The translations under genes were made by a program, and so were the position numbers. Of a stretch of 64,000 nucleotides of DNA, positions 7,483 through 54,838 are shown in pieces (the stretch's first letter is position 1; each line of letters starts with the position of its first letter). The DNA comes from Amyloporia xantha (Eukaryota > Basidiomycota > Agaricomycetes > Polyporales > Adustoporiaceae): positions 496,001 through 560,000 of the forward strand of contig JAYKKR010000014.1 in NCBI GenBank assembly GCA_036971615.1, in the 5' to 3' direction. Under the pieces are notes generated by a model. The model saw nothing but the letters and a program-made list of their open reading frames with translations, was not told the origin of the DNA and did no database searches.

Positions 7483-8475
7483 ATGCCTGGTCCCGCAGAC
7501 GCGTCTGGCAGTGGTACGGTACTAGCACCCGATCTCGGAGCTACCCCGCCAATCCCGGCTACCCCTGCCACCCCTGCCGCTCCTGCTGCCCCGGTTGCCC
7601 CTGCCGCCCCCGCTGCACCTGCGGCTGCCTCTGGTAGTGTCCCAGTGACTCTCTCCATGGAGCAGCTTGCGGGACTTCTTACGCTACTCCGCCCAGCTGC
7701 AGCGGACGTGGCCTCGGCGGGAGGAACAGCTCCCTCTCAAGTAACCGCGGCATCGTTTCCAGCCTTCTCTATGGCCGCCGGCAGTCAGGTTACACCTGGT
7801 ATGTCCCTCCTTGATTTATTCCCATCCGTCAAGGCAGGCGTGCTGTTAGATATTGCACGCCATGATTTCGAGCCCAGCGACCTTTATAAGTTGGATTCCA
7901 AGTACCGAGACAAGGCCGAGCGTTCCGTGCTCGACCTCTCCGGCAGCACGCTCACAGTACGCAGTACGACAACGAAGGATTACCCATCCTTCCACTCCTT
8001 ATTCCTTCCTCTAACGGTATATTTCCGCATCCTTACGGCGTTCGCGGCCTCTAGCAGCAATGGCTCTTTTACCTATCAGGTTAGTACCGGCGCGATGGAA
8101 TACCTCTCGCAACTGGAGGTTTTCCACGAAGACTACCAATGGTCTGCAGTACTATCCTATCACATGGAGTTCCATCACCGCCGCTTACGGGAAATGGCGC
8201 GTGGTGAGTACGCTGGCTGGTCGACGATCGATGCCACTCTCCAGGTTAAACACCTTGTCGGACGTGAACGTACGCGCATCAATGCATCTCCCCGTAATGG
8301 CGCACAGAAGGCCACTGCTCCCTCGACAACTCGTGACAACTCAAATGAGGTCTGTCAACTATTCAACAAAGGGGTCTGCTCTTCTCCATGCCGGTACCGA
8401 CGAGTTCACAAATGCTCAACGGCTGGTTGCGGTGCCACGGATCATGGGGCGCACTCCTGTCCAAAATCCACTTGA
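7483..8475 (+). CDS. Gag-like protein of the Ngaro/DIRS element
   Basis: The 330-aa open frame has a Pro/Ala-rich N-terminal third (runs of PA-TPA type repeats, residues about 20-60). A central region (LLDLFPSVKAGVLLDIARHD) follows. The C-terminus is a Cys/His cluster beginning VCQLFNKGVCSSPC and ending GATDHGAHSCPKST, a zinc-knuckle-like nucleic-acid-binding motif usual for DIRS/Ngaro Gag proteins. The ATG at 7483 is the first in frame; the frame stays open upstream to 7441. It would form the particle or RNA-binding component of the retroelement. Confidence 0.7.
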   Translation: MPGPADASGSGTVLAPDLGATPPIPATPATPAAPAAPVAPAAPAAPAAASGSVPVTLSMEQLAGLLTLLRPAAADVASAGGTAPSQVTAASFPAFSMAAGSQVTPGMSLLDLFPSVKAGVLLDIARHDFEPSDLYKLDSKYRDKAERSVLDLSGSTLTVRSTTTKDYPSFHSLFLPLTVYFRILTAFAASSSNGSFTYQVSTGAMEYLSQLEVFHEDYQWSAVLSYHMEFHHRRLREMARGEYAGWSTIDATLQVKHLVGRERTRINASPRNGAQKATAPSTTRDNSNEVCQLFNKGVCSSPCRYRRVHKCSTAGCGATDHGAHSCPKST

Positions 8476-12100: not shown

Positions 12101-13289
12101 GTTACACGCTCCCCGGCTTACCTCTGCTGCAATCCATTGCCTCCATCGTCGGCGGTCTGTCCTCATTGCTCTCAAATTGCACTGCTCGTCCACTGGTCAG
12201 AGTTCGAGGGGATTATTCCAACGCTGAAGCTGTAGAGAGTTTGTTCCTGCACGAGTGCTAACATCATCAGAGGCTGCGCACCGTCTCGGCATACCCTGTC
12301 CATCCTGGTCACCCCTTCTACTCAGGGAGTACATTTGACCTCCAGACTCCCAGATGAAGTTCTGAATTTTGGATCTCACCGGCAGGCAAAATGGTTGGCA
12401 GGGCGGACAGAGGACTAGATCCCCGGTGTGTACCTCGTTGTTTCTTCAAGGGCGAAGGCTGGCTGCCGTGTGCGCGGTCGTCTGCTGTGTGTATAGCTGG
12501 AAGAGTGAATCATAGAGTATCAATGCCAAACGACTGCTGGACGACGGACCGTGCCCCGCTTTCTAACATGGTGGTCATGGCCAGGCACATATGGATGCTA
12601 CCAGCGATTGCTTGTCTTCCCCCTCTAATCGAACAGGGCCGCAATGGAGGGCCGTCCATCATGAGGTTACGAATTCCGGCATGGGCGTCCCGTTCAAAGG
12701 GAGCGCCGTGCAGTGCGTCCATTCTGATGTGAAAGAATGGAGACAGGACAACGTGAACGCCGGGCCAAATTCCATTTTGCGGCAGACGCAGATTACTCGG
12801 GACCTCGCACGCTCAGGGTACAGCGCCTGTGTAGCGGCCGCCTGCATGATGGACCCGCATCTGTGGAACAGATGATAGGCACGATGGACAGGAGCTTGTC
12901 CTCTTTACCTTCTAAATATGCTTGGGCGCCCACACGTATCCCTCCTCAGCTATCGGGGATAGCCACAATGCTGCATCCACAGGCAGAGCATTCCGCGAAC
13001 TTTTCTCACAGCCCCTTCTGTTTCGTTTTGCCGTTCACAGAGTTCCCAGGCATTTTGACGGGGCAACCCGACGTCTGCCTAATGTTTTCGTCATGCTTAC
13101 AGCGTAGCCAACGCCGTACCCGCTGTCTACATAGGACGCGAACAATAAACAAAAACAAAAAGAAGTAGGTTCAATAGCGACGAGAGCTGTCACTACCCTC
13201 CGCGGAAGGCCCACGGATTCAGGCGTCCTCCCATGGTACCACCAACATTTTCTGTCCTGTTCAGTTGGTCCCGACAAGTCTAGGCAGTC
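12101..13289. other. No gene recognised
   Basis: 1.2 kb between the retroelement and the 3' flank of the dynamin gene. Short open frames only, with no recognisable domain. Confidence 0.35.
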
Positions 13290-13757
13290 AAGCATGTGCT
13301 CTGAACGATTGTCGGACGCAGAACAGTCTGCGAAGACCGTCGAGAGAGTACTGGGAGAGTGTCATGGAAGCATTGGCAACAACAACAAGATAAAAGTGAA
13401 CTCGAGGCGATGAGGAACCCCAAGCCGCCGCTGGTGTGTAGAATATTTGGGTATGTGGTCTGTACTTTACCGAGAAGTTGTGCATATCGGTTTCCTACCA
13501 TACAAGATCTTTCATTCAGATCGCCTCAAGATAACTTAGCACTTCCCGCCGTCGTCTCATTCGTTGCAGCATATGTGCTGCATGGACGACACTGAGTTGG
13601 CTGCGTTCGTCGTGCCTTAAACTTGCCGAGGTTGCGCACGGTGACTACTTTGGTCGTTCATTGTGTCCGTTTATACTCGTCCTTCTAGTAGCGAGCAATT
13701 TATTACACATAATTACAAGGTGTATATAAGAAATTTGAATCCGAGTGGATTCCGAAT
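13290..13757. repeat. Dynamin 3' flank shared with two other places in the window
   Basis: Starting at gtgctctgaacgattgtcgg, this stretch matches 37,265-37,720 over its length. The match continues through the last dynamin exon on both sides. A shorter third match lies at 39,810-40,200, interrupted by a MITE. These are copies of sequence downstream of a dynamin-family gene rather than an LTR. Confidence 0.65.
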
Positions 13758-38583: not shown

Positions 38584-39829
38584 TAACAACTGAAGTAGTC
38601 CACGACGGAATATAGATCAGACACATACTAGCTAGTAGACGCTCCCCTTTCACAATCCTCTTGTGCCTACCAGTGTGCCGTATTCCCATGACAGTTGCCG
38701 GATCCCTGAAGCATTTTCCTTAGTCCTCCGTTCACGGCGTTGGGCTGAGGCATTATCTAGATTGTAACATTTGTATTTATTCCATCATGGTTGTCTCATT
38801 ACCACGACCAGTAAGGGAGTTGAACGAAGACGAGAACGAGACCAGAATAGAATAGACACAAGAACTTACAGGATCTTCGATTAGAGATGTCGACCGTCAC
38901 AAATTGATGCTATTTCAATAATACATAATGTTTCGTGAACATCTTCCGGGTTTCGAGGCTGTGACAAATGGACGGCCCCGCGTTGCCTCCATTCTAGAAC
39001 GCCGTGAAGTAGAAATGGTGGTCTATTCGGCGGTGTAAGGGTTTCCAGTCTCGGATTTAAAATTAATCGATCAAAACGGGGCGAGCGATTTATCTCCTGA
39101 TGAAATTCTTCTTGCGGAGATGCATGTAACCTCCATTTCCCGTTTTACATGATGTCCGCGAGAGGCCCCACTGGGCCCCACGGGACCACATTGGACCACA
39201 CAAGACCTGATGGAGACGCCTCCCGGAATTCGGAGATGCGACCTCCCTAGACCCGGCGAATCTCCACGAGCTTCTGCTCTCCCGCGGGAGTCTTGCGGGT
39301 AGATGGAGAAGTATGCCGTACTTGATGAAAAGAAGTGACAAACATTTCTGTGCTTTCGGCGCCGTCACCCAACAGCGCTACTTTCATACAATGAACTGCA
39401 CACCCGGGACTTATCCATCGTCGCATCTGTCTCGGAGAATCAGGCAGTCAGGATGTTCAAGATGGAATATTCAGACTCAGACCGACTGAGATATCGCCTT
39501 CGGGAAAAGACGAAGTGAATAGTTCCACTGGTACGAAAGCGTGGACCCGAGTACGCTATGGGTGTTATCAGAAGATGTACAGAGGCTGCCTGTTGCTGTG
39601 ACAAAATTGGGCACATTTTACCAGTTCTTCGCTCGCAACTTGACCTGTCAAAGATGACTGAGATGTTATGGAGCAGAGCGCTCCGTCTCTTCCATGGACC
39701 AAGCCGCCAGAGCCGTCCCTATGGGGTGCGAAAGAAGGCTCACACATTCCGGCGTCAGAACATAATGCTGCCGATGTCTTCAGCTGGTTCGACCGTGATT
39801 AAGAAGTCGGGTGTGTGCTCTGGGCGGTT
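38584..39829. other. No gene recognised
   Basis: 1.2 kb with short open frames only. From about 39,810 a diverged copy of the dynamin 3' flank begins (gtgtgctctg). Confidence 0.35.
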
Positions 39830-40083
39830 CATCAGAACTTTCGACATTGGCCTGACGGCCCTGACAGATCACTTGTCAGGGCAGTCAGTGCAGTCAGGGT
39901 GTCAGACCGTAAATTTGTTTGAGCTCTACAATGGCTGCCTTAGCCATGTTGCCAAAATAAATTTCAGGCTCAGGTCAGGGTGTGCTAAGCTCTCAGTCAA
40001 ATTTGCAAAATTTCCATGTTAGGCAATTTACATTTTTTTGTCAGGGCTGTCAGGGTGTCAGGCCAATGTCGAAAGTACTGATG
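39830..40083. mobile_element. MITE-like element with CATCAG termini
   Basis: The ends are inverted: CATCAGAACTTTCGACATTG at the left (39,830) mirrors caatgtcgaaagtactgatg at the right (ending 40,083). The match continues through GCC(T)GAC.. and a CCCTGACA block. Inside are many gtcagg/ctgac repeats and no ORF. It interrupts a copy of the dynamin 3' flank, so it inserted after that duplication. A 2-bp TT may be the target duplication. Confidence 0.65.
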
Positions 40084-40200
40084 TTGACGGGTCACTTTGC
40101 CAAGAGACTGCTGAGAGAGCGAAATAAGAGGGTCGTGGAAACGAGTATTGGAAAAAGCAAACTCAAGGCGATGAAACATCCCGAGAAGCCCCAGTAGGTC
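40084..40200. repeat. Third, partial copy of the dynamin 3' flank
   Basis: The string gagtattggaaaaagcaaac, followed by an aaggcgatgaaacatcccga-type block, corresponds to 13,365-13,425 and 37,335-37,385. The left part of this copy lies before the MITE at 39,810-39,829. Confidence 0.5.
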
Positions 40201-41900: not shown

Positions 41901-42453
41901 TCATTCCCGCTTCATAGAGAAATCTGCAGTGGCCATCATGCTCGCAAATTCAACGACTTTCGTGCTATATTCTCGCAGATACTCCTCATCCCACGCATCC
42001 GTCCACTGTAATTCAGATCAAGTATTCTGTCAATAAAATGAAGGAATAAATAGACTAACTGCGAGCTGCAAATGAATCAACCCGTTCACGCTCCAGATGT
42101 GTGCTACCCTAATATATGGTCAATGTAATTCAGAAGAAAATTGTAGAAAGAGCTCACGGTCTGAGAATGTGGGATAAGCGATGACCGAAGAACAGGTCAT
42201 CTACCTCAATGACAGGGGTGTCTGCCGCTTCGTCGCCGCCTGTGTAGTATTTGAATGGGAACAGCCGGTCAACGACCCCAATGTTGGTAATAAACAGTGC
42301 AGCTTGATTAGGCCATGTCAGAGAGGGTGCGACCCGAGGAGGCATCAGCGTAGAGATATGGGAAGTGATGTGAGGCAGATGAGGGCTCGACAAGTAGTGT
42401 GAATATTCAGTGCGAATACAATCAAGGATAGAACGGAGCTGTGGAAGCCGACC
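41901..42453 (-). pseudogene. 3' half of a second acyltransferase gene, cut off by the KDZ transposon
   Basis: The C-terminal part of a condensation/alcohol acetyltransferase-type enzyme. Starting at the transposon junction the minus strand reads QLRSILDCIRTEYSHYLSSP, then FITNIGVVDRLFPFKYY and VIEVDDLFFGHRLSHILRP at a GTGAGC donor. Short exons HIWSVNGLIHLQLA and WTDAWDEEYLREYSTKVVEF end at TGA 41,901-41,903. These match the usual end of the family (T.lG.ve, then a ..GHRL.. strand and a C-terminal helix). The exons themselves show no stop or frameshift. The 5' half is at 53,462-54,838. Confidence 0.85.
42447..42453. repeat. Left target-site duplication of the KDZ element
   Basis: GCCGACC directly outside the left inverted repeat. 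The same 7 bp lie directly outside the right one at 53,462-53,468. Confidence 0.75.
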
Positions 42454-42625
42454 CAGCTGCTTATGTACTGTTGATGCACCAACTAGCGGATAAGCCCCCA
42501 GACCCGTTATGCACCAGGCAGGCTATCTGCCTGCACCCTGGTGCATCATCTGCAGGGTCTTCGCCGGACCCTCCGGGGCCTCCTATCCTTTGCCGTGGGC
42601 TCCGTTCGGCATCACGGCTTAATGC
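42454..42625 (+). repeat. Left terminal inverted repeat of the KDZ element
   Basis: Starts CAGCTGCTTATGTA and includes agcggataagcccccagacc, a palindrome around atgcaccagg..cctggtgcat (42,509-42,546) and ends near ttcggcatcacggctt. It is nearly identical to the reverse complement of 53,290-53,461; the outermost 35 bp are more diverged than the inner part. Confidence 0.9.
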
Positions 42626-42898
42626 CAAATGTGGTAGGTACGCCATGCATTTCTGCCTCCCTTGCAAATCAGGCTTAGGTTGTCTTCTATTTGCAAGACT
42701 GTGCGCTCGATTACACTCGATCATGATCGAGCATTCAGTACAAACTTAATCTCGATGTGTAGATAACAAAATGATATACATATTGCATTGGGATACATTG
42801 TAGACAATACAGGTAGCGAGCAGCCGTCCTACCTCACCTTTCTGACCAAGAGCCAAGAAGATTCAGCATTATTAGACCATCCAGCTATCATAGACAGC

Positions 42899-45877
42899 TC
42901 ACCTTCTCTTTGATGGGCCTGCGGACGGCGCTGCAGACATGTGCTTGTGGGAAGCTGTTGATGATGCGGACACAGAGGCACTCTCATCCTCCGCAAGCCG
43001 AGACAAGACCCAACCAACGTCACTGACGGCGGCTTCCCATTCTAATATGTACTCATCAGGGAGCACCGACTGCCACCAAACTAGCGAAAGAAGGATGATG
43101 AGGAAGCCATTTTTTCCCGGTTTCTTGAGTACAGTCCAGCTGCCGGCACCATCAGTCGTCGGACGGCCATCAGGGGTAGTCTTCCGCCAGTCGGGTTGTA
43201 TCTTCCTCCACCAGGTCCACCACATTTCCGCGTAGCCTCTTTCACAAGTAATAGGGGGTATCTTCTCGAAAGCGCGGCGACCAAATTTCGTCCAGTGCGT
43301 TACCTGGGGGGGACAACTGTTGCTGTCAATCCCGTGGTTCTACGGAGGTAAGTATTACCCGACATACGCACGAAATGCCACATACTGATGTCCGCCATCC
43401 ATACAGGCGCTCCAGCACCGTCCACCATGCCACCGCCTTATTGAAATGCTCGCCAAGATCACGGCCCATCATCCAGGTGAAGGCCTCGTGCACCCAGTCT
43501 GGCCAACCGGTTGAATTGACAGCAGCGTCCGGAACCAAGCAAATAGGTGATACCTGCCGCGAGGCACCATGTGCAGGGCCTTCCGATGGCGTAGACGACG
43601 GGCCTGGAGCCTGCACCGCCGAGTCATCCACCTGCAGCAGGTGAGAGGCATGGACAGCGACATCTTCAAGATCTTCCACACTAGGACCAGCGTTTGGTTG
43701 GGCGAGATCTGAAGCAGGCGGCAGAACATTCTGTTGCTCGACGTCGTCAGGAGGGGACCGGACACTCTGTTGCCCGACGTCATCAGGAGGGAACCGAACG
43801 TTCTGTTGCTCGACGTCGTCAGGGGAAACTGGACGTTCTGTTGCTCGATGTCTTCAGGAGGGGACCGGACGTTTGCAATTCCACCATCTATCTCAGACAG
43901 CGGCACTTGCAGATGCTCCAATGGTAGGGGGGCATTGTCTCCCTGCAGGCGATCCACACGTTCGACACCCGCAGGAGGTATCAAGGCGTTGGAAGGTTGC
44001 ACCGCGGCTTCAGAGACAGTTGTCCGATTCAGCCGATTTCCAACAGGTGAGTGTGGCGAAGGCGAGGCATGGATAGAGGAGCGAGCACCGTCAGATAGGT
44101 TGATAGGAAGAGACTGTAAGAATGCTGCATTAGCAGCCATGTTGTTGAGGCGCTCCCTCTCGAATTCGGGCAAGTCAGCCAAGGAGCGCAATTCAGATTG
44201 TCTCTGCGACTCTTCCAGCGCTGAGAGCTTTGCGCGCAGAGCTGGGCCTAGATCCAAATCGTCCGCTGTCACCACCGGGAGTTGACGTGGCTGCTGTGCA
44301 TGCATTGGTGCCTCCACATGCCCGAGTGCCACGCGTGCCTCCTCATCCTCCACCTCCTCGCCCTCCACCTCATTGTTGCCTTCGTCGCCTTCCTCCCTGT
44401 CGCCATAGCCATAATCGTCACCCTCCCCAACGCCGAAGGCTGCCCCCTCCTCCTCCTCACTGGAGCTTTCGTCGTCGTCGTCAACCCTAGCCACCTGAGG
44501 TCGAGTGTGAGAAGCTTCTCCTCTCCCCTTTCCTTTCTGGCTGGCTGTACGAGGACCTGCGGAAGTGACCGTATGAGAGGATGATGACGATGCCACCGGA
44601 GTCTCGATCAATGCAGTCCCGGCTGCAGAGGGGGGAGACTGCATGCCAGCAGCCACTAGATACAGCTGCTGCATGAGTAGGGCAATTTTAAAAGAGAGAT
44701 AAGAGACTTACGGTCGGTTTTAAGAAGAAACTGCGAGAAAGAGGGTACAATATGGTTGAGAAATGTATGGGAGTCGTCTTGAGTCCAGGACAGCGGTACT
44801 TGGCCAATTGACTTGCCGGAATTGACACTGAGAATCGGGGCATAAGTTTCGAATGCCAGCAGGCCGAAAAAAAGGGTATAGACTTACGCTTTGATGAAGA
44901 AATTGACCTCGCCATCCCTCGGCGGCGCACCCACAAGCAACGTCACACAGGTGCCGGTATACTGCCCAATTAAATCCAGCAACGGCTGGACGACCTGTAC
45001 GAGATTCTGTCGAGCACTTTGGTAGCCGTTAGACACTGCGCAGTGGAATGCAGAAGTACGACTTACATCTCCTCGTCCTCCTCGATCCCGCTAGCCTCGG
45101 GCAGTAATCCTCCACGGTAGTCATCAAGCTCTTTCTGGTGCTCATCGTGCGCAGCTTGCTCTATCTCGCTCCTCATCTCGGCAGTCCTCATTGCGAGCAA
45201 TTCTCGCGCGATCTGGCCTCGGAAATTCAGGCTCTGCTGGGGGGGAAGCCCTGCAAAGGGCCATCTCTCCTCATAAACAGCGTTGACTTCATCCGCATAT
45301 TTCCCCATGAAATACTGCCATGGGGCCTTCATTCTCGGAGGAGGATCGCGTATGTTTTTGAGGGCAGTGAGAACGCTCTCCCATGGGTTTGCGGAGCGGC
45401 GCGTGTGCGTGTTCGAGCGATACCGGAGGTAGTTTTTGAGAGTCTGTAGTGTATGGTCAGCAAGCCGCCAGTGAGCAAAAGATAGCGACTCACGTCTTGC
45501 ATAGCCTTCACATACGCTCCCTTCTCTGCAAGCTGCTCCTCTGTCAACTCGGCATCGGGCTGAGTGACTGGCTGGTAAGAGGGGTTGTCCGGTTCTGTGT
45601 CCAGAGGCAATGGCCACGGATACATAGCCCAGTAATCAGCAAAGAGAGTCGACCAGAAATCCGAGCTGGCAGCCTTGCCACGAGCTTTGGCGGCCTGAAA
45701 GTCGGCGAGTCGGCCCAGAAGAAAAGTCTCGCGAGTACCGTGAATCTTGCCCTGGTTTCCAGCCTTTCCACCCTTCTTGGGCTTAGAACGGCGCGGTCGA
45801 CAGTTAGCACGAGGGGCCCCCATTGCAGCCAGGGAGAATGACCAACGGGCGGCGCCTAGTAGGACAGTGGTGGGCAT
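42899..45877 (-). CDS. Large acidic hypothetical protein carried by the KDZ element (frameshift in a repeat)
   Basis: Several exons form one gene resembling proteins often seen next to basidiomycete KDZ elements, function unknown. Exon 1 (45,877-45,494) starts MPTTVLLGAARWSFS, or MGAPRANCRPRRS further in, and is basic with SKPKKGGK. Exon 2 (from 45,443) has KAPWQYFMGKYADEVNAVY. Then come VQPLLDLIGQYTG and VNSGKSIGQVPLSWTQDD. A long Glu/Asp-rich exon (ESSSEEEEG) ends in 36-bp minisatellite repeats. The C-terminal block has AVNSTGWPDWVHEAFTWMMG and WRKIQPDWRK, closing with KKPGKNGFLIILLSLVWWQ and stop at 42,899. One minisatellite unit is 35 bp, which shifts the frame near 43,830; the downstream frame is still conserved-looking. 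The break may be real or a repeat error. Confidence 0.65.
43729..43871 (-). repeat. 36-bp coding minisatellite in the KDZ hypothetical gene
   Basis: Four units beginning ttctgttgctcgacgtc-like at 43,729, 43,765, 43,801 and 43,836. On the minus strand they encode a PPDDVEQQNVR-type repeat. The spacing is 36, 36 and 35 bp; the short unit (tcaggggaaactgg) causes a frameshift. Confidence 0.75.
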
Positions 45878-45957
45878 GCACCAGGCATCCTCGGTGTAGT
45901 CCGAGAATCATCACGTGTTGACGTGTTGACTTTCCAGTTCATTGACGACCTCTTTTC
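45878..45957. promoter_or_regulatory. Short bidirectional promoter within the KDZ element
   Basis: Only 80 bp separate the divergent starts at 45,877 (-) and 45,958 (+). It contains the paired string acgtgttgacgtgttgac (45,913-45,930). If the downstream MGAP start is used for the minus gene, the gap is about 130 bp. Confidence 0.5.
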
Positions 45958-46818
45958 ATGGCCGCCAACACAGACCCCCTGCTCGACGTGTTCGCAAGCC
46001 TCAATGTCGATGATCCGCGCCTTACTCCCCGTGGCGTCCGCCTGCCCGGAGAGAAGAACAAGATATATGTCATCTGGGAAGGCAGGGAGACTGGTCTTTT
46101 CTTGAATTGGTGAGCTTTCCAGTTTCGGAGAAGTCCCCTGCTCACCATCTGCCACAGGGGTACTGTCAAGGCCCTCACAGAAGGATGGTCAGGCGCGGCG
46201 TACAAGTCCTTTCGCGATCTGCATCAAGCACGCCGAGCGTTTGTGGATGGCCCTGAACATTATGTCCTCCCGCATGTTCGCCCTCCACCGCCCATGCCAC
46301 ATCACCCTCCAAGTGTACCAACGCCTCTCAGTGAATCGACATCTTCCGCTGCTTCGTCTTCAAACCATGCCTCCAACGATGCCCAACCTCAATGTCTGCC
46401 TCAATATGCTCGACATCTGCGTGGACACCCTGCTGCCCCTCATCGCCCTCCAAGTCCCGTCGTGCTGTATGCTCCCAGCGCTACAGCTTCGACCGAGCCA
46501 GAAGCCTCCAGCACTTCCCCACCACCAACCACGCCCGAGGCGTTGCCTCGCCAGCGTAGGCCGACTTGGGTCGTGGTCCGGGGAATCAAACCTGGTGTCT
46601 ACTTCGACCGGTAAGTGCATCCCTGCTCCCGGTATTTTTGCATGCCCTCATAAATGAACAGGTTGACAGCTATTGAATTGCTGGGGGCGAGTACATCATG
46701 CAAGATGCGCAAGTTTGATGACGACGCGAGCGCGAGGACGTACTTTATGGCTCAACAGCAGCTCGGTAAAGTAGCTGTAATCACGGACGTCGTCGCTGAC
46801 GGTGAGGACAGTGACTAG
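45958..46818 (+). CDS. Protein with two RNase H1 hybrid-binding (viroplasmin) domains, KDZ cargo
   Basis: Three exons join in phase: 45,958-46,109; 46,158-46,610; 46,662-46,818, giving 253 aa. Near the N-terminus (about residues 25-70) KIYVIWEGRETGLFLNW, then GWSGAAYKSFRDLHQARRAF matches the hybrid-binding domain of eukaryotic RNase H1 and caulimovirus viroplasmin (YvV..Gr..Gif..W...G..ga..KsF....A). A second, more diverged copy closes the protein: TWVVVRGIKPGVYFDRL, then CKMRKFDDDASARTYFMAQ. A Pro/Ser/Ala-rich linker of about 110 residues joins them. There is no RNase H nuclease domain. In RNase H1 this domain binds RNA:DNA hybrids and dsRNA, so a nucleic-acid-binding role for the transposon or host is inferred. 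Confidence 0.82.
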
Positions 46819-46981
46819 GTGCCAGCAGGCGTTGTCAGCTTCTCATTAGGGCTGTAGTGGGGCCATAGTTCTAGGTAGTGGACATGTAGCATTCGCACAA
46901 TATACTCTGTGCATTACCTAAAAAACGTCACAAGCGAGTTACACCGCGCGGACCACAAGTAAGCAAACAACAAGGTATGCA
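46819..46981. other. Convergent intergenic spacer in the KDZ element
   Basis: 163 bp between the stops of two convergent genes; nothing recognised. Confidence 0.4.
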
Positions 46982-47654
46982 CTAAGTACGCGTCTGGGCA
47001 AGCCACACCGCAAGGCACTGTGGAGACAGATTACATCCAGCTTCGAGCGCTTCAAGCCGCACTTCCACAGCCGCAATTTGCGAGCTTATTTTGAAGCTGA
47101 TGCCAGTGACCTGGCGCCAAACATTAGCGATGTCAGACTCCCGGAGCATGCGGAACGCCCTGCGTGCCACCCACGCCTGGATGTCATCTAAGATTTTGTC
47201 ACCGGCGGCAATCCAATCAGACTTGAAAGATATCCATGCGCGTAGCTCATCGGCGTTCTGCACCAGGTGAAACTCGTGCCAGAATTCGGCCATTGCTTGA
47301 TCGATGTTGTCATTATAACCCCACGTATGCAGGGCATCGGAAAGCCAAGTAGGTACTCCATCGCGAATGACGATAACCTCTACGGGGCTGCCACGAAATG
47401 AGCATGTTGAGTGTGAACGATGACGAGGCTGCTTACCGGTCGATATCACTGTTGCCTTTCACGTCCAGACCACGCGGAACTGCAGGGGCAGTAGATGGGC
47501 TTTGGGAACGACCAGACCTGTGAATACAGAGCAAAGCGGCGGAGTCAGATACGCTCAGCAAGAGCAATCCTTTTACTTACTTTTTCTTCTGATAGTACCT
47601 GTGGTTTCTGGCTGCTCGAGCAGCCTTACGCTCTTGAGGCGTGAGCGAACGCAT
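46982..47654 (-). CDS. Small hypothetical protein with a basic N-terminus, KDZ cargo
   Basis: Three exons are proposed: MRSLTPQERKAARAARNHRY.. from 47,654 to a GTAAGT donor near 47,583; RSGRSQSPSTAPAVPRGLD.. ending at a GTAAGC donor near 47,437; and VEVIVIRDGVPTWLSDALHT.. from about 47,387 to the stop at 46,982. The protein is about 200 aa. The start is rich in Arg/Lys/Ala and could contact nucleic acid. The rest is helical-looking (WHEFHLVQNADELRAW; QVTGISFKISSQIAAVEVRL) with no known domain. It lies between the viroplasmin-domain and TET/JBP genes. Confidence 0.55.
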
Positions 47655-47893
47655 CAGAGGAGGATGTAGAAGAAGCAGTAGTAAATATAGTTGAGAAGGC
47701 CAGATGTGACGAGGCGATGGTACAGGGCACGTAGGAGCAAGATGCAGGCAGACGTTTGATGTCCACGGTTGGCACGTGAGACATGTTGGAAAGACTCAAC
47801 AGTACGCACAGACCGTCTTACACACGTCTTACACGCGTCTTATTTTCGTCTTACATTCGTCTTATGCTCGTCTGACAATCTATTGCTCGAGTT
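47655..47893. promoter_or_regulatory. Spacer with short tandem strings in the KDZ element
   Basis: Between 47,811 and 47,876 a diverged 11-12-bp string of type cgtcttacacg repeats about five times (cgtcttacacacgtcttaca, then acgcgtcttat, ttcgtcttaca, ttcgtcttatg). It lies just past the TET/JBP stop and upstream of the small minus-strand gene. Confidence 0.55.
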
Positions 47894-49406
47894 CTAAGTA
47901 CATGCCATGAGGTCCGACCATTTGGACAGCATATCGAGTCCCTGACGCCACCTATTCAATCCAAACTCTACTTTTCCTCCCGCCGCCTCAAACGCCTTCT
48001 GTGACTGAAACCCGCATTCAACCCATCTGAACAGACCCCCTGCGGAAAACTGCGTGAAGGACATGCGCTGTTCATTCTCACGAATGCGTATATTTGAATG
48101 CAAAAGGAGGGCAGAGGGTATTAATATCGTAGCGCCGGGTGGAAATTCGATGACCAGCTTCAGGTCCCATAGCACCAAATGTCCTCCGAGTGCTGGGTTG
48201 AAGTTCCCTAACGCAGTGACTGTGCACCACCCCCACGGCAAGTTCTGATGGTCGGTATGTGGGTGACTAACCACGCAAGGGCCAAAGTTGAAACCGCCGG
48301 CGCCGAACGCGTTGTTTTCGAAGTTGAGCCGTAGCTGAGGGTCCCGTGTCTGTAGCCGCGATATCGTTTCCGCATAGTAGGCGTACAGTCGTGGCGCGAA
48401 CAGCTTGAGGGCGCCGTTGCCGAAGTTCGCGAGCCTGCGGACGTCTGGGTTATCAAGGAGGGAGTATAGACTTGCCAAGTTTTTGGCACTGTGCGTGAGA
48501 TTGCCGACTTTCTGCAGACGCGTTCAGAGAATTCATAGCGTCAATTGAGGGGCTACTCACTGTCTGTCCTCCGCCATACGAAATTCCCACAGAGAGCGCA
48601 GGATAGTTGCCTCTCCTATGCACCCTGCGCTTTTCCTCGAAGAATGAGCAATCGCTCGTGGCTCGCATGGCGTCGGCTGCTCGCGCCGCTACTTCATCCC
48701 AAGTAGAATCCCTCGGCTTGCCTGCCAGCACAGCGAAGACCCGGTCGTCCTTGTCTAACAGAGGTCGGCATTGCTGGCCGTCCCACTCGACGTACTCGAA
48801 GTCGGCGTGCTTGGCCAAGAATGTCGGTAGGTCCTCTTCTACGTAGTCCTCTGCCGTCTTCTCCAGGCGCCGTCCTATGAAGGCCGTCGAAGCCACTGGG
48901 ATGTCCTGCATTTCTAAAGACAGTGCTGTCGATTCTGCCTGCGTGTCTCCGATGCGCACCTCAAGATCTCGACGACACGCCTCGCCCAGCGCTGCAGTCA
49001 AGGGTGCTGGCACATAATATGTAGCAGCAGCCCGACGCCGCTTCACCGCTACAGCCTTGAGGTGAGTGTCGTTCTGCTGGCGTGCTGCGTCGCGGGCAGC
49101 CTTTCGACGTGCATGGCTACGGCGCTTCTGGTGGTACGCTTCCTTGGTGGCAGGTGGCGCAGGGGGCAGGTGCATGGATGCGCTAGGGATTCGACTGCTA
49201 GTAGCGTCTGCAGGGAGAGCAAGGGTGCCAACTGTCAGATCGTCGGGGTCGAGGGCTGGGAGGGCAGCATAGAAGTCCTCTCTCGCTACGGCGGTCTCTA
49301 GCTCTGCTGGCAGGTCGAAAGTCGGCGGTGCATAGAGCGGCTCTCCGAGTTGAAAGGACCACGGAGAATACTCCCTGCCTGAGCGCGTTGTGCGAGGTAG
49401 AGACAT
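47894..49406 (-). CDS. TET/JBP-family 2-oxoglutarate/Fe(II) dioxygenase, KDZ cargo
   Basis: TET/JBP enzymes oxidise 5-methylcytosine or thymine in DNA using Fe(II) and 2-oxoglutarate. Two exons, 49,406-48,561 and 48,511-47,894, join in phase for 487 aa. The N-terminal part is Arg/Ala-rich and probably DNA-contacting (KRRSHARRKAARDAARQQ). The catalytic domain spans the intron. It includes SVGISYGGGQT, FNFGPCVVSHPHTDHQNLPW with the iron-binding HxD, GHLVLWDLKLVIEFPPGATI, then LLHSN with the distal His, and ENEQRMSFTQFSAGGLFRW with the 2-oxoglutarate Arg. All expected ligands are present, so it is probably active. The start at MSLPRTTRSG is preferred; an in-frame ATG at 49,518 would add 37 residues. 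It is divergent from the transposase, as in other KDZ elements with TET/JBP genes. Confidence 0.9.
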
Positions 49407-49709
49407 TCCTGTAGAGTATGCGTGATTAGCGTTGGTCCATAATAGGTAATACGCGCCCTGCGCGATGCTGTGCTGTAGATGTGGTCCGGGTTCCAAAGTC
49501 GGATCCACGCTAGACATCACAGCACAGCACGGCAGGCACAAATAATGGTAACTCACTGTGTGCTGTGCGCAGGTCCGCCGTGCGTGTGCGGCCCTCATCG
49601 ACAGGTCGACAGGTGGCGGGGCCTTCCAGCCTGTATTCGCGTCCGCGTCCATGTCACGTGACATGGTTGGAACATCGCGTTCCCGGACTATCTTGCCAGC
49701 TGGTGCACC
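49407..49709. promoter_or_regulatory. Bidirectional promoter between TET/JBP and transposase genes
   Basis: 303 bp between divergent starts. It contains gtccatgtcacgtgacatgg (49,647-49,666), a near-perfect palindrome with a CACGTG-like core. Confidence 0.5.
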
Positions 49710-52700
49710 ATGTCGAAGAAGCGCAAGCGTGACACCGACGCTGCTGCCAGTGCCTCCGTGCAAGACTACCATTTCACACTGGCCGACCTCAATAAGCAGC
49801 CAGCCACTGACTTCACCGTTGACCGCTCATCAGTCGACCGACGCCGCTTCCTTCGACACGCGGACTCTGTATCACTATCCTCTACTCCATCGGCAACGCG
49901 CCCTCCCTCCCCTGTGCGCGAAGAAGGGGCCGCATTACCAGAGGGCGATGATATTGTTTACATGGAGGACTTAGGAGATTGTCCGGCCAGACGACATGAC
50001 AATTCTGTGAGTGCTTTGTGTAGTACGAATCCCATACTACGCGTGCTGATAATGGCCAGGACAATCCGATGTCCTCCTGGCTTCCCCTGAGAGATGAATT
50101 CCTCGATGAGCTGTGTCGTGCAGAGGGACGTGGTGACTTCTCTCAGTCCAACTGCCCCTGCTGTCCTTCCGGTACTCCTCCGCGTGTGGCCTCAATCCGG
50201 TGCATGGACTGTCTCACTGGGCCATTGCTGTGTGAGCCATGTGTCGTCACACGGCATCTGTGCTCCCCGCTGCACCGTGTCAAGGTGAGACTCATGCCAG
50301 AGACAATCGCGATTTACTCACAGTCTTTGTGTAGCGGTGGAATGGATATACCTTTGTTCACACTGCGTTGCGAGATCTCGGGCTCGTCATCCAGCTCGGA
50401 CATCCAGATGGGACAGCCTGCTGTTCTCCGCGCCAAACCCGTACAACGTTCACCGTCGTGCACACAAACGGCCTGCATGGTGTCTGCCTCAAGTTCTGTG
50501 CATGTGACAGGGCGGGATCTGTCGGTTCTCTCCGCCAGCAATTACTTCGCCGTGAACTCTATCCAGCTACGGTCACAGAGCCTGCAACGGCTTTCACGTT
50601 CCGCCTCCTGGAGCATTACCATATTCAAAGCGTCCAGGCAAAAATTTCCATGTACGACTACTACGAGGGCCTCGCCCGTGTCACGGACGGCTGTGGCCAG
50701 TTCAGACTGAAGAATCGCTATGCGGCGTTCATGCGCGTCGTCCATCAATGGCGACATCTCAAACTGCTCAAGCGGGGTGGGCGAGGTCATGAGCCGGCTG
50801 GTGTGAATGGGACGCGGCCAGGTGAACTTGCTGTAGAATGCCCTGCCTGTCCGATCCCTGGCATCAACCTGCCGAACAACTGGGAGGCAGTATCAGATGA
50901 TCTCCGATACCTCTATGCCCTCAATGTAGCAATTGATGCTTGCTTCCGGCTGAAGCGTCGGAATGTGTCAAGCAAGGCAAAGGACCCGGTTATTGGTGGT
51001 GGCTGGGCGTATTTTGTGGAGGATGAGGGCTACAAGTCCGAGATAGCTAAGCACCCGAATCAGGCTGAGGTAAGCCTTCTCTTTGTCTAGACGACTTGTC
51101 TGTTGATGTGTCATTCAGATATCAACATGCACTGAGCTCGCAGCATTGGATCATGCCAACACAAAGTACTCAAAGGGCTATGATGCAACGGGGGTCTGTG
51201 CAGCCATATGCGGGCGGCATGAATTCATGCTAAAGACAGGTGTCGGGGACCTTCAGAAGGGAGAGAGGTACGTAATACTAGCACCATCTTACCTACATGG
51301 CCTGACCAATTCCAAGATATGTGAACATTGATTATGTGTTTGCATCTGCTATGACCTATCACAAGCGCGTTTGCAAGACAGTGACATATGATATCGCATG
51401 TCAATGGTCGGTGCACCTGCTTGAGCGGCTCGAGTCTTTCCCCACACATCTGCAGATCCCACTTCCGGAGGGAACGATCGCCTATGCAATTCCAAAGCTG
51501 CACTGGTATGGGCATAAACGCAAGGATCACAACAAGTTCTCCCTTAATTACATGGAGGGTGTCGGACGGACTGACGGCGAGGGCATTGAGCGGCGCTGGT
51601 GGCAAATCCAGCCGATCGCCAACAGCACAAAGGGAATGGGGCCTGGTCTGAGACAGGGCATGCTGGATGATCAATGGGGTTATTCGAACTGGCGGAAGGT
51701 CATCACCTTAGGCAAGACACTGCAGTCGCGGCTGGTGAGGGCGCTGGACGCATTCGAGGAGCAAGACGAGATGTTCACTGTGTTTACGGCGTCGTTGCAG
51801 AAGGAGACAACAGAGGCTTGGGAGATGGAGGTCTCCGCATGGGAGGTTGACCGTACGCTGGCTGATCCGTATGAGAATCTGGTGTCAGGTAGGCCTCATG
51901 CTACTGGCGATGTGGCATTATCTCACGGATTGATTCAGGTCCTACCGAGGCACAGATTCGCCGCTCCATTGCTCAAGAAGAGCAGGCAGAGATCAGTGTT
52001 CGCTCGCTGCTCGTGCCTCGAGAAGTAAGTGAGGCAGCCTACCTCACCAACGCACTGGAGCTTGAAGATCGGCTGTAAGAGTTCACATTCTGGTTCTGTA
52101 CATCGAATATTGATTTGCCTGCAGTGTGCGTCTGCGGAAGGATGCCAAGAAGACGACTCCCACTCAGGAGCTGCACCTCGTTGAGCGAAGGACCGCTCTC
52201 TGGCGCAACATAAGCCGCCTGCGCGAGATCCAGGCCTTCTACATGCCTTGCGTTGGACGTTTGCTGGACAGTGGGACAGGTCTTGTGGATGCTGAACATG
52301 TCGAAGATGCCAACCTCCTGCTGCCATCGGAGCTCAGTCATGCTGAGCGTGCCACCGGTTGCTCAAGCTCATTGGCATCAAAGGAGGCCCGGCTGCGCGA
52401 GGCACAATGCCGTGACGCATTGGAAGATCTTCGCAACAAGTTACACGTCAAGGACCGCCTCCTGCAATACAAGCATGTCAATGTTCGGCACCAAGGCCCA
52501 AATACCCGCGCCCGCCAACAGCTAACCACACACCTTGACAAGATCACTGCATGCGCTGAGAAGTACCGTCGGGCACGAGGCGCCCTACTTCGTCTCACTA
52601 ATGGTGGTGCATGGCGAGAATTCAGGGTACTCAATGACGAGGACATTCAAGGAATGCAAGATGACGACCCAGACACTATGCGAAGAAGATCCAAGCGGAA

Positions 52701-53214
52701 GGGCCCAGTGGAGGGCCGTAAAAAAATTTCATGGATATGGATGGCAGCCGACGGCGGAGACGATGTAGCCCTCAATGCTGCCCTACGCATTGAGTGGCTG
52801 CGGGCCAGGGCACGAGTCAGGCGATGGGGAGAAGAAGTCAAACTGCTACCGGAGGAGATGCGGCGCGTGCTTGCATATTTTGAGTGGAAGTCGTGCTGGT
52901 GGAGAGGGAAGGCGGCCCTCAGGGTAGGTCTTGATCCCTGCCTGGAAGAAGGTCTATCTGCGTATGCAGAAGAGCAGGCTTCAATTTTCGATGGGCTGTG
53001 GCTGCAATTTTGTAAGGTATGGATTGATATCAGGGAGGAGGCAGGTGGTAGTTTGGAGCCTGAATGGCTTCTTAGTCCTGGCATTGCAGAGCTGTGCAGA
53101 ACTGACGGGGGCAACAACGAGGATGACGACGAGGATGCTGACAACATTGAGGCCCCGCGCAATTCCCTATTTGGGTATCCCGACGTTGAAGATCCTGCAG
53201 AGATGTATCTGTAG
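49710..53214 (+). CDS. CxC2-KDZ transposase
   Basis: Seven exons join in phase (49,710-50,006; 50,060-50,284; 50,335-51,069; 51,119-51,267; 51,317-51,888; 51,939-52,074; 52,125-53,214), giving 1067 aa. A basic start (MSKKRKRDTDAAASA) is followed at about residues 130-172 by the CxC2 cysteine cluster: CPCCPSGTPP, CMDC, CEPC and HLCSPLH. The KDZ catalytic region follows: ALDHANTKYSKGYDATGVC, TYDIACQWS near residue 495, and YMEGVGRTDGEGIERRWW near 555, which carry likely acidic catalytic residues. The C-terminal third is helical with an acidic tail (NNEDDDEDADNIEAP). No frameshift is present. It would cut and insert the element by recognising the inverted repeats; the stop lies about 75 bp inside the right repeat. 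Confidence 0.92.
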
Positions 53215-53289
53215 CACAGTACCCGAAATTTAATAAAATGCATGCGGATTAAGCTATTAAACAAGTGCTGCAGTGGTATTACTATATAC

Positions 53290-53461
53290 AGCACCAAGCC
53301 GTGATGCCGAACAGAGCCCACGGCGAAGGCTAGGAGCCCCGGAGGGCCCGGCAAAGACCCTGCAGATGATGCACCAGGGTGCAGGCAGATAGCCTGCCTG
53401 GTGCATAACGGGTCTGGGGGCTTATCCGCTGTTTGGTGCACCAGGTATACATAAGTTGGTG
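53290..53461 (-). repeat. Right terminal inverted repeat of the KDZ element
   Basis: Reverse complement begins CACCAACTTATGTA and then follows the left repeat with few differences, including the internal palindrome at 53,369-53,406. The outer terminal string CTTATGTA is identical in both ends. Confidence 0.9.
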
Positions 53462-53468
53462 GCCGACC
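53462..53468. repeat. Right target-site duplication of the KDZ element
   Basis: GCCGACC, identical to 42,447-42,453. The next base differs (A here, C at the left), so an 8-bp duplication would have one mismatch. Confidence 0.75.
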
Positions 53469-54838
53469 ATCTTGCCCCCTGAACACGCTGTAAGGCACCT
53501 TAATCGGTACTAACGCGGACGTGGAGGTAATATGCGAGAGTTCATTGTGGGGGGCCACCAGATATCTCATGAGAGAAATGCTAATTATCGCAATATGTGA
53601 CGGTACTTTCACAATGAAAATGTGATCACACTTACAACGTGACATCCAAGGTGACATGAGCTTCTTCCTCTCCACCTTCAATTTCGGGATTCTGGGCGAA
53701 CATCGCAAGAATCGAGGCAGCTTCGAATAAATGCGTGACGGTGTGACCGATTTGCTTCAGACCGTTCATTATGCGCTGTGAAGTCTCTCGATCAAGAGTC
53801 TTGAGCACTCTGGTCACTTTGCCGATATTGTCCACCTTCTGTCGGACCGGCCGTAAGGAGTGCGTAGGCTGAGACGTCGTCAGAAACTGCGACTCACGTC
53901 AAATGCATGCAGATGAACAACGTACCACTTTGCTGGATTGTGTATTCAGATAAGTTTGTAGCGTGCTGACTCCTTCGGTTGACCATCCAGGACGAGGTCC
54001 ACCGGTAGCGGCGATAGGCCCTGGTGCTAAATTCCTCCATTCCTCCCCCCAAGCAAGATTATTGATGTCGTGAGAACTATCTCCACGAGTTATCTCCTCG
54101 AACAAGATCCGGAATGTATTGAGATTCGGATGGGCATCGAATATAGCATGTGTGCCATGGACGAAGATAGCCATCCCTTCGCCTGTATTCTTTAGCAGAT
54201 ACAGTTTGAAGTGTTGCTTCGCCTCGTCGTGGCGCGTATACGGTAATCGGGTTGCAATCGTCTGAGTGACAAAATCATTGGGCAAAATGTCCTCCTCGAT
54301 AATTTGTAAGGTGTCAGTGGCCCAACGCTGGACCTCTAACGGACCAGAAGCAGGCGTGTACACCCATGAGCTAAGGTCCGGGTCATGAACCCCCTTCCGT
54401 ATTGTAGATGCTAGCAGAGGCGAAACAAAGCTACACAATAACGTTGTCATCATGTCCGGCTGAGGACGCTCTGACTGGCACTCACCGCAAGTAACATAGC
54501 GCTGCAACTAGCTTCTCTGCGAAGACATCGGGCGCTAACACAGTCTTGAACGTTATTCCCAAACACACATCGCCCAATCTGTAGCATAAGCAAACACAAA
54601 TATCACTCCTATGGAGTACGTGCGATACAGCGGCGAGCATACCCATCTTCGAATGCATGCCAAGCAAATATGAACGCCTCTGACCCTACCATGGGCCTGA
54701 GGAATATACGTTCAGTTACTGTAGCGATGAGCCCTCAAAAGGCAAATTCTGGACAGCATACCTTGAATAACTGGTGGCTGGTTCCTGTTCCAACAGAGTC
54801 CAAGCAGGTTCAGAAGGAGGATCGGCTGCTGAAGACAT
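53462..54838 (-). pseudogene. 5' half of the acyltransferase gene split by the KDZ transposon
   Basis: Start MSSAADPPSEPAWTLLEQ at 54,838, exon PMVGSEAFIFAWHAFEDG, then LGDVCLGITFKTVLAPDVFA, and a long exon with the acyltransferase His motif in GMAIFVHGTHAIFDAHP (HxxxD; the Gly is Ala here). The later exon reads NGLKQIGHTVTHLFEAASIL. The last exon reads LMRYLVAPHNEL and runs into the transposon after VFRGQDGR. All introns are short and normal and no internal stop was found. The remaining C-terminal part continues in frame at 42,453. The gene cannot make a normal protein now. It belongs to the same broad fold as the 2.6-kb gene and may have served a pathway with the nearby adenylation enzyme. 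Confidence 0.87.

Follow-up and report, generated by a model that had tools for sequence, protein, structure and literature searches.

A KDZ transposon of 11,008 bp with 5'-CA..TG-3' ends (42454–53461) interrupts the sixth of the eight exons of an acyltransferase-like gene in the window, the whole 64-kb stretch of DNA that was analysed. The best explanation, in which we place high confidence, is that a TET+ Kyakuja-like cut-and-paste element, moved by its transposase, landed in exon 6 of an acyltransferase-like gene that was then functional. The insertion was confirmed at base level: examination of the junctions and exons bore out the coordinates and junction peptides (VFRGQDGR and LPQLRSILD) given by the initial annotation, together with its claim that one gene was split by the element and that the frame closes when the element and one copy of the target site duplication (TSD) are left out (1,081 + 443 = 1,524 nt).

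Insertion site and target site duplication

The 7-bp GCCGACC, read from the sequence, stands on the left (42447–42453) and on the right (53462–53468) of the element. This heptamer is not rare in the 64-kb window, where it occurs nine times against 6.05 expected and where 18 of 100 shuffles gave at least nine occurrences; the probability of an equal 7-mer at two random window positions is about 1 in 10^4 (20 of 200,000 random position pairs), and the positions tested were fixed beforehand by the inverted termini. As in such transposons generally, the transposase would make a 7-base staggered cut and gap repair would leave seven bases on each side; the duplication, the termini and the spacing relative to the paralogue are observed.

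Of the 14 family copies for which both ends were examined, namely the window copy, a copy on contig C34 and 12 short copies, 13 had an exact 7-bp TSD; 11 of the 12 short copies were scored positive by script, and the C34 copy (GCACAAT at both outer sides) and window copy by eye. These copies came from a search of the genome with the left end, in which 40 of 195 first-look candidates were scored and 28 of the 40 proved to be paired ends belonging to these 14 copies; the ten weakest matches (78–80%), C13:8993, whose other end is missing, and a match on C18 with one end found (L046) were left out of the TSD count. No motif shared among the duplicated 7-mers of the 13 TSD-bearing copies was seen by eye. 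The sole copy lacking a TSD among the 14 (L038, C55:1014900–1019300) is perhaps a recombinant or deletion product.

The repetition of KDZ termini in the genome, evident from the same candidates, could have allowed an assembly join through a repeated KDZ end, in which case the gene would not really be split. We consider this extremely improbable, since an artefactual junction should neither create matching 7-bp sequences on both sides of the element, as in 13 of the 14 family copies, nor leave the two halves in register with the paralogue. Moreover, the flanks match only a 69–70% identical paralogue elsewhere in the genome, and both junctions lie deep inside a 929,818-bp contig. Neither outcome that the initial annotation had named as refuting, halves matching different proteins or an assembly join at a junction, was found in the homologue comparison or from the position of the junctions in the contig.

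The split acyltransferase-like gene

According to its exon plan and open frame, the whole gene runs on the minus strand from 54838 to 41901. The 5' half (53462–54838) starts with an ATG at 54838 and consists of six exon pieces with GT..AG introns and an open frame (54838–54762, 54696–54643, 54578–54486, 54430–53926, 53868–53636 and 53580–53462), the last of which is the first part of exon 6 and includes one TSD copy. With that copy it amounts to 1,081 nt or 360 codons, and it shares 72% identity with the paralogue over 358 aa. The 3' half (41901–42446, minus strand) continues the open frame in three pieces totalling 443 nt, namely the rest of exon 6 (42446–42158), exon 7 (42108–42060) and exon 8 to the stop (42005–41901), and 139 aa of it align with the paralogue at 68% identity. 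The joined length of 3 × 508 nt makes 508 codons, stop included and one TSD copy counted. All seven introns are GT..AG, and exon-by-exon reading found no stop, frameshift or bad splice site in either half; the earlier statement that no other damage is visible is therefore right as far as frame, stops and splice sites are concerned.

The comparison with related proteins that the initial annotation had proposed for the concatenated flanks was run on the two halves separately, which addresses the same point. Among 22 fungal homologues, the 5' half matched all 22 and the 3' half 20 (the exceptions being P0021 and P0022); in all 20 the 3' match followed the 5' match in order, with a gap within 20 residues in 17, so that both halves match the same proteins collinearly. 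Homologues retrieved by protein search were named condensation-domain protein or alcohol acetyltransferase, many being merely hypothetical. Pfam detected Tri3 in two of the three homologues scanned (1.7e-5 and 2.1e-9) and a sub-threshold PapA_C match in the third, and no relevant Pfam family was matched in the paralogue. The 5' half and the paralogue both contain HAIFD, which fits HxxxD, the motif of such acyltransferases. The names of the relatives and their weak Pfam matches suggest that the gene family is acyltransferase-like. Given the nearby GMC oxidoreductase matches (35.5–35.9 and 36.9–37.1 kb) and AMP-binding ORFs (56.4–58.0 kb) in the window, it is plausible that the split gene belongs to a secondary-metabolism neighbourhood.

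The uninterrupted paralogue as a reference

An uninterrupted paralogue is located on the same contig at C6:372.5–374.3 kb, about 164 kb from the split gene. Searches of the genome with each flank returned two places, the flank itself and adjoining stretches of the paralogue (C6:372518–372989 for the left flank and C6:373048–374278 for the right), and no further flank matches were found in the genome. On minus-strand alignment, the spacing of the flanks in the paralogue (12 positions) equals that in the window minus the element and one TSD copy. The paralogue has exons of 77, 54, 93, 505, 233, 405, 49 and 105 nt, and those of the split gene measure 77, 54, 93, 505, 233, 408 (119 + 289), 49 and 105 nt, amounting to one 3-bp indel. 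The paralogue encodes 506 aa with no stop, its first intron is GC..AG, and its best named full-length relatives are polypore proteins of Rhodofomes, Fibroporia and Rhodonia at 48–51% identity, which makes a polypore related to these genera the most likely host.

Compared with the paralogue, both halves bear the mark of purifying selection: dN/dS is about 0.10 for the 5' half and 0.12 for the 3' half, and dS, near 1.65, is close to saturation. The difference at about 30% of residues, this dS and the low dN/dS together indicate an old split in which both copies were kept by selection. They also bear on the suggestion that the insertion was neutral, with the paralogue doing the same job and the split copy being a dying duplicate. 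This is compatible with the transposase-mediated insertion preferred here and is consistent with the complete, open frame of the paralogue; nevertheless, such divergence under selection speaks against it, as does the finding of only one other coherent, gene-sized tblastx block between the window and the 30 kb around the paralogue, the remainder being scattered short matches. We regard this neutral reading as rather unlikely.

Two stretches of the window on opposite strands (12593–13347 and 39543–40184) gave tblastx matches to C6:356575–357294, about 16 kb from the paralogue. These matches point to a putative second gene near both acyltransferase-like copies, and the two ORFs from the window stretches had no Pfam match.

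Consequences and age of the insertion

At most, the split gene would yield residues 1–360 plus a tail encoded by the element, and it is therefore most likely a null or truncated allele. From exon 6, the frame of the 5' half runs past the junction into the element and meets a stop at 52647 (frame 52647–53580, minus strand, from sequence reading). It crosses the right terminus without a stop and then lies antisense to the transposase gene, open for over 200 codons, so that a long chimeric tail could be translated from a truncated transcript. The 3'-half frame extends only 26 codons upstream, nearly all of them element sequence and containing no methionine.

If not kept by selection, two intact halves bound the age of the insertion at about 0.7–1.5% substitutions per site (95%), a bound that depends on the assumed indel rate, the higher rate of 0.27 per substitution being that between the C6 (window) and C13 copies of the element. 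A much older unselected insertion is therefore unlikely. An older insertion, or split halves retained by selection, for example for a 5'-half product ending in the element, could draw on the read-through frame and on the lack of disabling damage in either half; nevertheless, the 3' half has only the short methionine-free extension just described, 20 of the 22 homologues hold both parts in one protein, and without selection the same divergence bound applies. This makes an older or selected insertion very unlikely. Under the preferred reading, an insertion of the transposon into a working gene, too little time would have passed since the event for a disabling mutation to arise.

The initial annotation had called the insertion very recent. 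That remains plausible and fits the intact halves, but the bound of 0.7–1.5% is not tight and the C13 copy dates a copying event. Two ways of dating were rejected. The terminal inverted repeat (TIR) arms of DNA transposons need not start out identical, so that the divergence between them is not a clock, and their outermost heptamers are unequal in the same fashion in the C34 copy and all 12 short ones. The C13 copy gives the age of a copying event and not that of the window insertion, which could be the parent. The further proposal that an empty-site allele may still exist found no counterpart in the assembly, where the flanks match the window locus and the paralogue, or in the protein search. 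With the paralogue as query, that search had no hit above 52% identity, compared with 68–72% expected of an intact allele; it confined scoring to the 7,997 candidates with the most words in common, in a collection that did not return the paralogue itself and from which the host seems to be absent.

Structure and gene content of the element

The assignment of 42454–53461 to a TET+, Kyakuja-like KDZ DNA transposon is based on its termini, TSD and domains, and the provisional name Kyakuja is drawn from the TSD, termini, cargo and likely host order. Comparison of the ends delimits a left TIR of about 187 nt (42454–42640, plus strand) with CAGCTGC as its outermost 7 nt, and a right TIR of about 187 nt (53275–53461, minus strand) with CACCAAC when read inward. 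The inverted arms align over 127 nt with 91% identity and, in a second block, over 61 nt with 82%, and the inequality of the outermost 7 nt recurs in the C34 copy and in all 12 short ones. One terminus was also searched against plasmids, with no match and little value as a test; likewise, a scan of the left end for bacterial-type promoters and terminators, which is not meaningful for a fungus, returned nothing.

The KDZ transposase gene (49710–53214, plus strand) has seven exons and an intact frame of 1,067 aa, with the KDZ catalytic domain (PF18758, 1.2e-55, full profile 1–217) and a CxC2 zinc-chelating domain (PF18803, 2.6e-39). On the minus strand, fold match and relatives point to a gene for a TET/JBP-type 2OG-Fe(II) dioxygenase (47894–49406) in two exons (49406–48561 and 48511–47894) encoding 487 aa. 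The element also contains a three-exon gene (45958–46818, plus strand) for a 253-aa protein with an RNase H1 N-terminal (Cauli_VI) domain (PF01693, 5.2e-15), and minus-strand ORFs at 43469–45877, in which two scanned ORFs (43469–44674 and 45063–45617) had no Pfam match, and at 46982–47449, also with no Pfam match. Judging from its intact KDZ transposase and TET/JBP dioxygenase genes, the element looks autonomous.

The 487-aa protein had 614 relatives at E <= 0.001; among the 120 listed, one was labelled JBP1/TET (UniRef) and three carried a PF12851 label beforehand. The protein itself had no Pfam match, and a PDB sequence search with it returned no TET, only two unrelated weak matches. Among 14 aligned members, Tet_JBP (PF12851) hit four, with a best value of 9.5e-7, three of the 14 having been included for their existing PF12851 label. 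H367 and H420 are invariant in all 14 and D369 is present in at least 90%, in agreement with HxD...H, the conserved iron-ligand motif of TET/JBP dioxygenases. An AlphaFold2 model of the second exon only (pLDDT 92) retrieved CcTet chains at ranks 1–12 and Naegleria TET chains at ranks 13–16 in Foldseek, with E from 4.8e-8, moderate TM-scores of 0.41–0.60 (query length) and 13–20% identity. The predicted structure thus argues for a TET-type fold with CcTet as the best fold match. From this match and published work, the protein would probably oxidise 5-methylcytosine on the element and thereby aid its escape from silencing.

Other copies and activity of the family

Searches of the genome (46.8 Mb in 60 contigs) with parts of the element recovered two further copies of high identity. 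The C13 copy is 99.2% identical over the first 7,547 nt, with 41 substitutions and 11 gaps relative to the window copy over about 7.5 kb, and then passes into other sequence up to the contig end. The C34 copy is about 98% identical and is broken by inserts of 1.7 and 33.5 kb. One being partial and the other interrupted, the window copy is the only uninterrupted high-identity copy that these searches found. More distant relatives (71–81% overall) lie on C12 (L047, 74–81%) and C55 (L048, 71–80%).

The 33.5-kb insert of the C34 copy (C34:222514–256033, L052–L055) contains ORFs with CxC- and KDZ-like stretches recognized by eye, and has inverted ends of about 297 nt and a seeming 7-bp duplication, CACATGG, with nine of ten bases matching if extended; it apparently consists of nested KDZ elements. 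On C13, the 1.6 kb past element position 7547 (L028, C13:1–1626) ends in CACAA/CCTAA-rich sequence at the contig end, which is perhaps a chromosome end.

The 12 short copies (L029–L040; on C5, C13, C23, C22, C55, C12 and C2) measure 2.9–3.5 kb and have only the terminal ~190 nt in common with the full element. The interiors of L029 and L037, for which frames were listed, hold long open, repetitive frames rich in Arg, Gly, Ser and Pro in several reading frames. Eight of the 12 fall into three groups with 99.7–99.9% identity within each group and differing TSDs, and the other four stand apart. Elements with such ends must therefore have moved very recently. The ~3-kb copies, sharing termini only, would probably be moved by the same transposase or a close relative of it, and it is possible, on sequence grounds, that the window copy mobilises them; since their termini are only about 88–94% identical to those of the window element, another transposase source could do so as well. 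A more far-reaching view is that the window holds an active, autonomous TET+ KDZ copy that supplies transposase in trans to still-spreading short copies, and that the insertion is still polymorphic, which we put forward as a tentative and rather doubtful proposal.

Relation to known KDZ elements

The sections drawn on from Kojima (2025; PMC12730594) describe TET+ Kyakuja elements of Agaricomycetes, in which a KDZ transposase is combined with a TET/JBP dioxygenase, a 7-bp TSD and 5'-CA..TG-3' termini, all as in the window element. For Polyporales those sections report no TET+ lineage other than TET+ Kyakuja, and TET likely serves escape from methylation in TET+ elements (PMC12730594). The same source states that there are no TIRs in two Laccaria families, Kyakuja-1_LB and Kyakuja-2_LB, which is not a definition of the lineage. 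The window element, with TIRs of about 187 nt, differs from these two, and other published families may have TIRs. Relative to the TET+ Kyakuja elements covered there (PMC12730594), the window insertion adds resolution within an exon against a paralogue reference.

KDZ1–KDZ3 of Cryptococcus neoformans, according to the portion of that study consulted (PMC12810828), are ~9–11 kb long with TIRs of 139–241 bp; their jumps into an FRR1 reporter were seen directly with short TSDs, and KDZ2 and KDZ3 were found in exons and introns. The window element resembles them in size, long TIRs and insertion in a gene with a short TSD, but has a 7-bp TSD and CxC2, in contrast to CxC1 and TSDs of 8 bp (KDZ1) or 4–8 bp (KDZ2 and KDZ3) (PMC12810828). 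It also carries a TET-like gene, whereas that portion mentions none for C. neoformans KDZ. For KDZ elements at large, TSD lengths of 7–8 bp (PMC12730594) and 4–8 bp (PMC12810828) are given in the respective excerpts.

In the genome of the mushroom Marasmius oreades, about half of the DNA elements belong to KDZ and Plavaka, and TIR motifs were characterised; the part of the report used describes no disruption of a single gene (PMC8290104). KDZ insertions in mating-type loci have been described as well (PMC12510652, in part), and a study of transposon mobility in a mushroom applied empty-site analysis, with KDZ and Kyakuja absent from its main text as far as the text was available (PMC9674265). 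A general literature search made without the host name found no paper on the window locus or its host. As gene disruption by KDZ, the TSD and TET cargo are all known, the window locus is a well-resolved new example.

Implications

At this locus the insertion of a TET-carrying KDZ element is resolved in full, with exact ends, an exact target, undamaged halves and an uninterrupted paralogue as reference, and long TIRs are now described for a type of element of which two families were reported to have none. One intact element copy together with one disrupted gene could be used for measuring transposition, excision footprints and methylation. If the element were indeed active and autonomous and its insertion polymorphic, the locus would provide a natural test bed for asking whether TET keeps its own transposon DNA unmethylated and mobile.
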